64,000 bases of DNA from Albula goreensis. Taxonomy: Eukaryota; Chordata; Actinopteri; Albuliformes; Albulidae. Position 1 is the first letter of the stretch. Each line of letters opens with the position of its first letter. A program made the translations under genes and the position numbers. This document shows, piece after piece, positions 48,001-51,000 of this stretch. Under the pieces are notes generated by a model. That model saw nothing but the letters and a program-made list of their open reading frames with translations, was not told the origin of the DNA and made no database searches. The stretch lies in the NCBI GenBank assembly GCA_022829145.1, contig CM040745.1, forward strand, positions 40,090,144 through 40,154,143, given 5' to 3'.

Positions 48001-51000
48001 TTGACTTTTGAGGGGTCTGGTGAAGGGCTGCTGGGAGTTTTGGAGGGTTAAAGGGAGGGAGGGAGGGGGCGGAGGAAATACAGCTGGGGAGGATTTTAGG
48101 GAAATGGGAGGGGGCATATCCGGGGGCACGGGGGGGGGGGGTAAAAAAGCACACATGGGCACAGCCAATAAGCCCAGGTGTGTGTGAGAGGGGCTTGGCA
48201 AACACGCTACTGCAACAGAGTTTCAAAGAAACTGTCCGCATTCTTGTAAGGGTGAGCGATCAGTAACAGGATACAATGGTGAGAAAAAGCTGGTGAACAG
48301 AGAGAGTCTGAAGCAATGCTGAAATACAGCTTTCCACTCTGAAACTATTTCAAAGTGTACTTTTTGTTTTCTAGCTCACAGTACATGTTATTGTTATGGA
48401 TTATTATTTCTATTGAGATAAATGCATTGGAAGGAAACTTTTGGGGCATCTGATATTGCTGTTTTCCAAAGCAAATCTTTATTAAAATGTAATAATATCA
48501 CTAAATAACCAGAATTTATTGAGGTATAAGTAGAGCAGAAGTATTTCTTTTAATTTGCTTTTGAAAAACAGGAATACAGTCAGAGAAAAGTTTCCTTTTC
48601 AAATGGACACTTCTAAGTTCAAATTTACTCCTTTCACATATGCACTGGTGGCTGAATCTAAAGAGAAGACCATGTGAGAAATGCAAAAAGCCTGTGGAAT
48701 TTGCTACCATTGAAGGGTGGAACCCCAGACACACACTGTTGAGAGATCTACAGTGCAAATCCGCAGGGACATAGCTTTAGAGAATGGCAGCTATAGCTCA
48801 TTCTATTGTATAACACAGAAGGAAATGTGTCTCCAATAATGCTTAGATCCACCATTTTCAAATTCTACCTATTTTTTCTCTTAAATCAGATAGAAGCTGT
48901 TCTGTCTCGAGACTGTGAAGGAAAAGCTAGGCCACATCTGCTAAAGTAAAGTATTTCCATAATGATTCCCACATGTGTGGACGATACTGGGAATAATATA
49001 ATAAGCAAATGGGATGGAAATAAAGGTGAATCAATTCTAAACCTTTGGCAAAGCATTCTGTCTTTAATAAAGAAGAATACCACAGAAATTTAAATGAACT
49101 TAGAAGTGTCTTTCAATTCTATTTTCATTTGTTTCTCGTGAAAAAAAACAACTGCTGCTTTATAGGATAAGACCAGCTTTGGGCTGAAATCCAGCCACAC
49201 AGACAATGGCCATCCATGAGTTTATAAAGCAATGGATGTTTTTCAGACTAAAAACAATGAAAAAGCACAAAGAATTACACAGTAATTTATTTATGAAAGT
49301 GTAATAAATAAATTACGACCACTGGGGAGGCTCTGGTCAACAGGGCAGATGGGACAGCATTCTCCGAATGGAATCTCGGGGTTGGGGCACTCTTTAAGCT
49401 CCTCGCAGATAATGTCGTCGCACAGGACAGTTCCAGTGTCACACACGCAGATGCGACAAGGCTGTGGTTTCCACACGTCCTTGTCGCTATAGCGCTGGCC
49501 GTCTTGCACGCAGCTGCCAGGCTCCTCTGCGCGGCGCCACAAGGGGGCGCACACAGAGCGGGGCAGGTGGGCGGTGGAAGGAGAGAGAGAGGAGACGTCA
49601 GATCTGCATAACAATCGCTGTCGTCACACCACAGAATCCCCACAATCCATCAGGGGTCAGGAAAAGTTTGGGAATTAAAAACAATGAACTTGCACACCAG
49701 ATCACATACAACAAACAACTGCATCAATGATTATGAATCCTTAAATGCAAATCAAAACAAAATAATCAAAAGAAAATGATAAAAATAATAAAACGAATGT
49801 GAACATGAACACAACATTCATATACTTAAAATACTTTTAAAACCACACACTTTGCACAAAGTTCAATTGCAGCCAAAACCAGATAATACACTTGCAATTC
49901 CACATACACACCACATGGTGGAAGTGTGGCTCCACGCGATCGTTCACAACTGCACCGCATCCCTCAACGAAAAATCCCAATCCCAAAGTGACACAACCAC
50001 GAGAGAATATTACGCGTCTGGGAGGCTGCTGCTGCGGAGCATTTTTGGTACAGACGCAGAGGACTCTCGAAGAAACGCGCTCTCAACATTCCTTCTAACC
50101 CTTAAGTTTCAAAAGGCCAATTTAAGATTTTATGAGACTGATTTGCAGTAACCGCTTCGCGATAATTGTGCTCTCATTTATAAAGGTAAATATACCGTGG
50201 AGCACAGTGTACAGTCCCTGAAAATAGCCACACAGGACAACGTACCTATTTCTGGATGTTGATTTTGGGTGAAATTACAGTTATAAACTTGACTGCTAAG
50301 CATTTGGCGTCTTCACATCTACTTGCATTAACTATTTGTCTAAAGTTCCCCCTCCAAAGACGGAGAGGTGTAGTGGAGAGGTGTACAACGGATGTTTGTT
50401 CTAAAGCCAATAATGACTTGTCCTTCAGAGGTGAGCGAAGAAACCGTTAACCTGACTGTACACAAAACCATTCTATGTCCATAGAAGATTTGGTAATTAA
50501 GTTTTACGAAGTGCTATGTAATGCAGTACAATTGAACGATCGTTTTACGATTATTTTGGATTATTAGGCGACATTTTGATATAAATAAAGCACAGATATC
50601 ACTGATTTTCCAACACTACGTGATTTTGTGCTAAACGTATTACAAGTAATGTTTCTGAAAATAAATTCACACCAGGTGATTCGCAGGCCCTAATGTGGTC
50701 CGTTTGATACAGAGGTATGAAGTCTTTTGATGCTTCGCCGAGGAGGGCCTGTACCAGTCGCTTGTGAAGCGCATTGCGAATGTGGACAGGAGCACCAAGA
50801 GTGTAAGTACAGTAGGTATGTTTACCTTGGAGGCCTGGTCAGCTCTGGGTAACCTAGCGGACCCCAACACATATGAATGAGGTCTTTCTTAAAGACACAG
50901 AGCGCCCAATTCACAAGGTATCGCCTTATCCAAACACGGGTCGCTTTTAACCCCCCATCTGGAACCCATAGCTCTGACAGACGCCAGTCCAAACACGTTA

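Follow-up and report, generated by a model that had tools for sequence, protein, structure and literature searches.

A conserved hairpin beside the weak exon 2 donor of two col2a1-like genes in Albula goreensis, a probable fish counterpart of the mammalian type II procollagen splicing element

Introduction

Does a fish type II procollagen gene carry the kind of RNA element that has been described for the splicing of exon 2 in mammals? The question is raised by a stretch of 64,000 nucleotides of the Albula goreensis genome assembly (the window, meaning throughout the whole stretch that was analysed), in which a first-pass annotation had proposed a deeply conserved splicing switch at a collagen exon. 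In mammals, McAlinden et al. (2005, J Biol Chem 280:32700) reportedly described a weak 5′ splice site at COL2A1 exon 2 together with an adjacent intronic stem-loop; the conserved stem is reported to contain both an enhancer rich in U and a silencer rich in A, and later work is reported to involve TIA-1. The switch between the IIA and IIB isoforms signals that embryonic cartilage is giving way to mature cartilage. The mammalian IIA, IIB, IIC and IID isoforms arise by splicing of COL2A1 exon 2 (PMC12627340, PMC8899160), the exon comprises 69 residues (PMC12627340), and mutations within it cause an eye-only form of Stickler disease (PMC9222743).

For fish, no report of a splicing hairpin at exon 2 of a type II collagen gene was found among titles and the opening parts of abstracts, a body of text that most subscription papers lie outside, and a search of the same literature for a portion of the hairpin arm sequence together with COL2A1 gave no paper.

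The gene and its second copy

The collagen gene lies on the minus strand of the window, in a source genome of 932 Mb and 208 contigs. On this contig, termed C5, a simple exon caller that mis-called one exon end gave 42 Gly-X-Y exons, accompanied by an exon 1 that encodes a signal-like peptide, an exon with a von Willebrand factor type C (VWC) domain, and an exon 3 of 17 nt (Table 1). The name col2a1 is presumed from the order of these exons and from the human protein. The earlier identification of a type II procollagen gene is supported; the Gly-X-Y exons and the VWC exon give both copies the appearance of col2a1.

A genome-wide Pfam VWC search listed 59 matches, and the five best, which were read, all resemble fibrillar collagen exons. 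Exon 2 of the window gene is matched at C5:40139488-40139655 (E 1.1e-13), and a second col2a1 gene was found through the same search on contig C12. Between the two genes, 908 of 960 residues are identical across 41 exon pairs. At fourfold-degenerate sites the copies differ at 298 of 686 positions (43%), 176 of them by transversion, so the duplication is old; we infer that it was the teleost whole-genome duplication. Outside this genome, the exon 2 protein query had no confirmed relative among viral contigs (2 pattern matches) or prokaryote contigs (27).

Elsewhere in the window, the 2-kb bin at 30001-32000 has a GC skew of -0.35 and an AT skew of +0.42, unlike the rest of the window; this strand asymmetry is probably that of a simple-sequence tract.

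Table 1. Features of the col2a1 copy in the window. Intron positions are counted from the first base of intron 2, and the slash in donor sequences marks the exon-intron boundary.
Feature	Window position	Strand	Intron 2 position	Description
Exon 1, coding part	53222..53315	minus		31 residues and the first base of a codon
Exon 2	49320..49526	minus		207 nt (69 codons), encoding a VWC domain rich in cysteine; phase compatible with in-frame skipping
Exon 3	47757..47773	minus		17 nt; G-PAGAK; frame kept when joined to exon 1 (EEDD-R-PAGAK)
Exon 2 donor GTG/GTCGTA	49314..49319	minus	+1 to +6	3 of 9 consensus matches
Alternative donor GTC/GTAATT	49311..49316	minus		Lies 3 nt further into intron 2 than the exon 2 donor
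Exon-side pairing GACCA (49338-49334)/UGGUC (49321-49317)	49317..49338	minus		Predicted; takes in donor bases +1 to +3 and directly adjoins the intron stem
Hairpin 5′ arm GUAAUUUAUUUAU	49304..49316	minus		8 U of 13
Hairpin loop UACACUUUC	49295..49303	minus		9 nt; length and sequence differ in C12
Hairpin 3′ arm AUAAAUAAAUUAC	49282..49294	minus		A-rich
U-rich tract downstream of the hairpin	49248..49272	minus	about +48 to +72	
Block A, the donor hairpin		minus	+1-37	blastn, C5 versus C12
Block B		minus	+209-229 in C5, +261-281 in C12	blastn
Block B arm GACACUUCUAAGUUCA	49095..49110	minus	+210 to +225	5′ arm of the predicted long-range stem
Block C		minus	+696-736 in C5, +646-686 in C12	85% over 41 nt, E 7e-9
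Block C arm UGAACUUAGAAGUGUC	48606..48621	minus	+699 to +714	Perfect inverted repeat of the block B arm
Block D	48391..48438	minus	+882-929 in C5, +803-851 in C12	blastn

The exon 2 donor and its alternatives

Intron 2 of the window gene begins at 49319 on the minus strand with GTCGTAATTTATTTATTACACTTTCATAAATAAATTAC. The mismatches to consensus that had been noted in its donor at +3, +4 and +5 are present, but the list was incomplete, as +6 (A for T), -2 and -3 also depart from MAG/GTRAGT. Donor strength was ranked with a position weight matrix (PWM) built from the other donors of both col2a1 genes, with 91 donors scored and 90 ranked; the mis-called exon end AGT/GCTGTG was left out of the ranks, yet it was included in the matrix. 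By this measure the exon 2 donor of C5 is the weakest of the 90 and that of C12 the third weakest, and U1 duplex energy ranks the two exon 2 donors third and fourth weakest of 90. The weakness claimed for this donor is thus borne out by both scores, and both copies have C at +3.

The alternative donor GTAATT that begins at +4 in C5 does lie inside the 5′ arm of the hairpin, where it supplies the opening bases of the stem; it is not the only one nearby, as had been claimed, since an identical GTAATT occurs at +42. The two measures of strength disagree on it, with PWM scores of 0.45 for the +4 donor versus -6.6 for the exon 2 donor, and U1 duplex energies of -1.7 versus -2.6, by which the +4 donor is the worse. 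Because the +4 donor is the better by PWM, the main junction of the C5 copy could be the +4 one. The C12 copy has no GT at +4, where it reads GTC/ATAATT.

Folding also suggests pairing on the exon side of the donor. In folds that include 20 exon bases, the C12 counterpart of the pairing in Table 1 has a different sequence and 4 bp versus the 5 bp of C5, covers +1 and +2, and stops one base short of the intron stem. As modelled, the donor may be held by two neighbouring hairpins, one exon-side and one intronic.

Exon 2 of C12 also contains an internal donor, CAG/GTAGCT, nine nucleotides into the exon (C12:9056661-9056666), with 7 of 9 consensus matches; it is absent from C5 and, if used, would leave an in-frame three-codon stub.

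The donor hairpin

The intron 2 opening of C5 is GTC GTAATTTATTTAT TACACTTTC ATAAATAAATTAC, and the perfect 13-bp inverted repeat with a 9-nt loop that had been reported from intron position +4 was confirmed at 49316-49282 (minus strand). Its description as an all-AU stem needs correction, since 12 of the 13 pairs are A-U and the outermost is G-C. The corresponding opening of C12 is GTC ATAATTTATTTA ATCTCTCA TAAATAAATTAT, which forms a 12-bp stem likewise starting at +4. With loops of 3-12 nt, no other perfect 13-bp stem occurs in the window, where three distinct stems of at least 11 bp were counted. Within the first 60 nucleotides of each intron of the two genes, the longest perfect stems are those of intron 2 (13 bp in C5 and 12 bp in C12), and all others reach at most 8 bp. 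The same stretch after the assigned donors of the other VWC-containing collagen-like genes, on C8, on C22 and at C5:22.7 Mb, holds perfect stems of only 4, 3 and 5 bp. A search of Rfam with window positions 48000-54500 gave no match up to E 1.

The first 50 intron nucleotides fold at -9.0 kcal/mol in C5 (z -4.2; among 200 shuffles, 1 folded equally well) and at -6.6 kcal/mol in C12, where 0 of 200 shuffles were as good and the z-score of -38.7 is inflated because its shuffles hardly fold. These energies are ordinary among the intron starts of both genes, 16 of 87 reaching -9.0 or lower and 31 of 87 reaching -6.6 or lower. What is unusual about the hairpin is its perfect stem at +4 and its conservation; its plain folding energy is not.

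The foot of the stem, at +4 to +6, has a predicted mean pair probability of at least 0.95 from 5 to 37°C in both copies, and the predicted values are still 0.99 and 0.92 at 45°C and 0.95 and 0.82 at 55°C. A role as temperature sensor was rejected on this basis, since a stem predicted to be closed from 5 to 37°C, and mostly closed even at 55°C, is by itself a poor thermometer.

Downstream of the hairpin, the next 52 nucleotides have a T fraction of 0.50 in C5 and 0.54 in C12, compared with a mean of 0.285 (sd 0.083, maximum 0.615) in 85 other introns.

Conservation between the two copies

Across the 12 stem pairs common to C5 and C12, 22 of 24 bases are identical. At the outermost pair, C5 has G-C where C12 has A-U, so that both can pair there, and a MAFFT alignment represents the 3′ side of this change as an inserted T, not as a substitution. 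As the sole changed pair in two sequences, it agrees with pairing and is no proof of it. The proposal that what is ancient is the structure and not the sequence is not supported, as the sequence has been kept too; with both kept, two sequences cannot separate them.

In a search that passes over simple repeats and very frequent words, the 11-bp stem shared by the copies (TAATTTATTTA..TAAATAAATTA, with a loop of 4-14 nt) was found at two places in the 932 Mb, both directly 3′ of a col2a1 exon 2, and a letter-reversed control of this stem at three. When up to 3 mismatches are allowed, the hairpin in its full 35 nt occurs at one place in the genome.

Alignment of intron 2 from +7 to +46 between the copies scores 19.0, compared with a mean of 4.3 (sd 2.1, maximum 9.5) for 42 other matched introns; the next 60 nucleotides are not special, scoring 10.5 versus a mean of 5.3 and a maximum of 12.0 for 40 others. 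Judged from these sequence comparisons, the conservation of the donor hairpin is best read as the result of selection, not inertia, and it suggests that the exon 2 switch is older than the gene duplication. A switch of that age could be tested in a laboratory fish. The gene pair, alike in its weak donor and with stems that hardly differ, also constitutes a natural experiment, with one copy having and one lacking the +4 donor.

Conserved blocks deeper in intron 2 and in intron 1

Between the copies, 39 introns were compared, and three have a blastn match at E 1e-3 or better: intron 2, with the four blocks of Table 1; intron 1, with one; and one other intron, with 15 nt at the donor. Arms within blocks B and C form an inverted repeat that in C5 is perfect over 16 bp, is the longest of intron 2, and has its arms 473 nt apart. 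In C12, 15 of 16 pairs are kept with the arms 371 nt apart, one G-C pair having become a U-U mismatch, which is no compensated change, and the longest inverted repeat of that intron is another one, of 15 bp. When intron 2 is folded as a whole, the B-C helix is predicted for each of the copies, with pair probabilities of 0.84-1.00 in C5 and 0.88-0.99 in C12 (15 pairs).

The sequences TGAAYTTAGAAGTGTC and GACACTTCTAAKTTCA each occur at four places in the genome, three in col2a1 introns 2 and one elsewhere, and their reversed controls at one place each; by this count B and C are not a common repeat. B and C may form a long-range RNA stem, or they may be two factor-binding sites acting at the DNA level in opposite directions. 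A third helix, which pairs the tail of block C with block D over 11 bp in the C5 fold (12 bp as a perfect repeat), is missing from the C12 fold and is therefore not counted as conserved.

The block in intron 1 lies mid-intron, at window positions 51499-51562 on the minus strand, with 65 alignment columns that are 78% identical between the copies (E 1e-8); it may correspond to the cartilage enhancer of mammalian intron 1.

Spickett et al. (2016) reportedly show that variants deep within COL2A1 introns have an effect on the splicing of exon 2, which makes a splicing role of the B-C stem worth testing. If it acts on exon 2, this long-range stem would be an unexpected second part of the system.

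Isoforms

Exon 2 is 207 nt long in both copies, and joining of exon 1 to exon 3 is in frame. The predicted junctions of the products of exon 2 skipping are EEDD-R-PAGAK in C5 and EEDD-R-PLGAK in C12. The mammalian junction reads QDV-R-QPG (PMC6275061), so that both fish copies have the same R at this point.

In mammals, IIC retains exon 2 only up to nucleotide 34, and IID is three nucleotides longer than IIA (PMC8899160). In both fish copies a GT is lacking at the IIC position, after nucleotide 34 of exon 2 (CAGCG/CTATAG in C5 and CAGCG/TTATAA in C12). A GT at the IID position, 3 nt past the end of exon 2, is present in C5, where it belongs to the alternative donor at +4 noted earlier, and absent from C12.

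A stem-loop at the start codon

A stem-loop ending in the start codon is present in both col2a1 genes, as CATGTCTAATATTTAGACATG in C5 (window 53333-53313, minus strand) and at C12:9053631-9053651. The 21-nt stem-loop of C5 is identical to that of two col1a1-like genes, on C8 and C22, and related start-codon stem-loops occur in a gene on C20, which is taken to be col1a2-like from its signal peptide, and in one at C5:22.75 Mb, for which the label col5a2-like is uncertain. The pattern CATGTCTAN{2,10}TAGACATG occurs at 18 places in the genome, of which 6 end in a collagen start codon, and its reversed control at 6.

This element resembles the stem-loop of type I collagen mRNAs that is bound by LARP6. 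A review restricts that stem-loop to type I and type III collagen mRNAs and describes type II as being without it (PMC4813270), and the start-codon stem-loop of fish col2a1 stands in contrast to that statement.

The two col1a1-like genes (C8:16710222 and C22:8395828) have identical 56-residue VWC protein sequences and identical 70-nt start-codon regions, and the C8 gene has a GC donor, ATG/GCAAGT, that may be used.

Proposed mechanism and alternative explanations

The hairpin and weak donor are probably the fish counterpart of the mammalian exon 2 splicing element of type II procollagen. Kinship with the mammalian stem-loop is the most likely relationship, judged by position and by the description of the mammalian element. 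In the proposed element, the second half of a poor 5′ splice site, +4 to +6, would double as the foot of an AU-rich hairpin. The exon 2 donor pairs badly with U1 snRNA, as its rank among the gene's other donors shows, and the hairpin, predicted to be closed by default from 5 to 37°C, would mask the donor from +4 onwards together with the +4 alternative donor. Where a U-rich-binding splicing factor is abundant, of the TIA-1/TIAR type if the mammalian work is a guide, the 5′ arm, once opened or bound, would recruit U1 with help from the U-rich tract beyond it, leading to inclusion of exon 2 and yielding IIA or, through the +4 donor of the C5 copy, IID. In mature chondrocytes the donor would lose, and exon 2 would be skipped in frame to give IIB.

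The alternative that carries some weight, while still being rather unlikely, is that each arm has been kept as a linear site for protein binding, one an enhancer rich in U and the other a silencer rich in A, with pairing as a by-product. The near-identity of the paired bases between copies fits this view, as do the AUUUA repeats in the 5′ arm and the enhancer and silencer that McAlinden et al. are reported to have placed within the mammalian stem. Linear sites do not, however, call for arms that form perfect inverted repeats of 13 and 12 bp, or for a sole changed pair that still pairs in both copies.

It is less likely again that exon 2 is constitutive and that the hairpin, with no switch of inclusion, fixes the efficiency of the weak donor or selects between +1 and +4. 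The C5 copy could be read in this way, as its +4 donor stands exactly at the foot of the stem with the better PWM score, but C12 keeps the hairpin with no GT at +4, so that a choice between +1 and +4 cannot be the function common to both copies.

Much the same sequences could in principle serve as a DNA-level element, an enhancer or a factor-binding palindrome, and not as RNA. Introns 1 and 2 do hold other conserved non-coding blocks, as would be expected of a gene with intronic enhancers; a start locked to +4 in both copies, adjoining abnormally weak donors, makes this highly improbable.

A chance AT-rich palindrome, the end of a mobile element or recent copying between the genes can practically be dismissed: there are three other stems of at least 11 bp (loops of 3-12 nt) in the 110 kb of the two genes, one being the start-codon stem-loop, and the likeness within intron 2 extends to three more blocks, but the genome-wide stem searches, with their two places both at +4 of the same intron, ruled out chance or repeat origin, and against recent copying the introns are unalignable between the shared blocks, the loops differ, and fourfold sites have diverged as described above.

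A splicing element of the mammalian kind is thus the preferred reading. A broader model that builds on it is put forward tentatively, as a possibility that is on the whole doubtful. Exon 2 would be controlled by a two-part RNA architecture in fish intron 2, in which the hairpin at +4 is joined by the long-range B-C stem, looping out a portion of the intron; the minimal switch, a GTC donor with an AU stem, would be ancestral, the IIC and IID donors would be dispensable, and the isoforms would be split between the copies, with IIA, IIB and IID from C5 and IIA and IIB from C12.

Comparison with known systems

The 5′ splice sites of MAPT exon 10 and SMN2 exon 7 are masked by stem-loops. In these systems a hairpin at the exon-intron border likewise lowers the access of U1 to a weak donor, and the stem includes the donor itself. 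The fish stem, in contrast, starts at +4, and +1 to +3 are left to the separate, weaker pairing predicted on the exon side.

The mammalian COL2A1 element is the closer parallel, with the same gene, a 207-nt exon, a weak donor and a stem-loop placed directly in intron 2. Its 5′ arm is reported to be U-rich and its 3′ arm A-rich, and the fish arms fit this description. The fish system differs in that the genome has two copies of the gene. The kind of element is therefore already known; what is added is that both of these old fish copies carry it with almost the same sequence.
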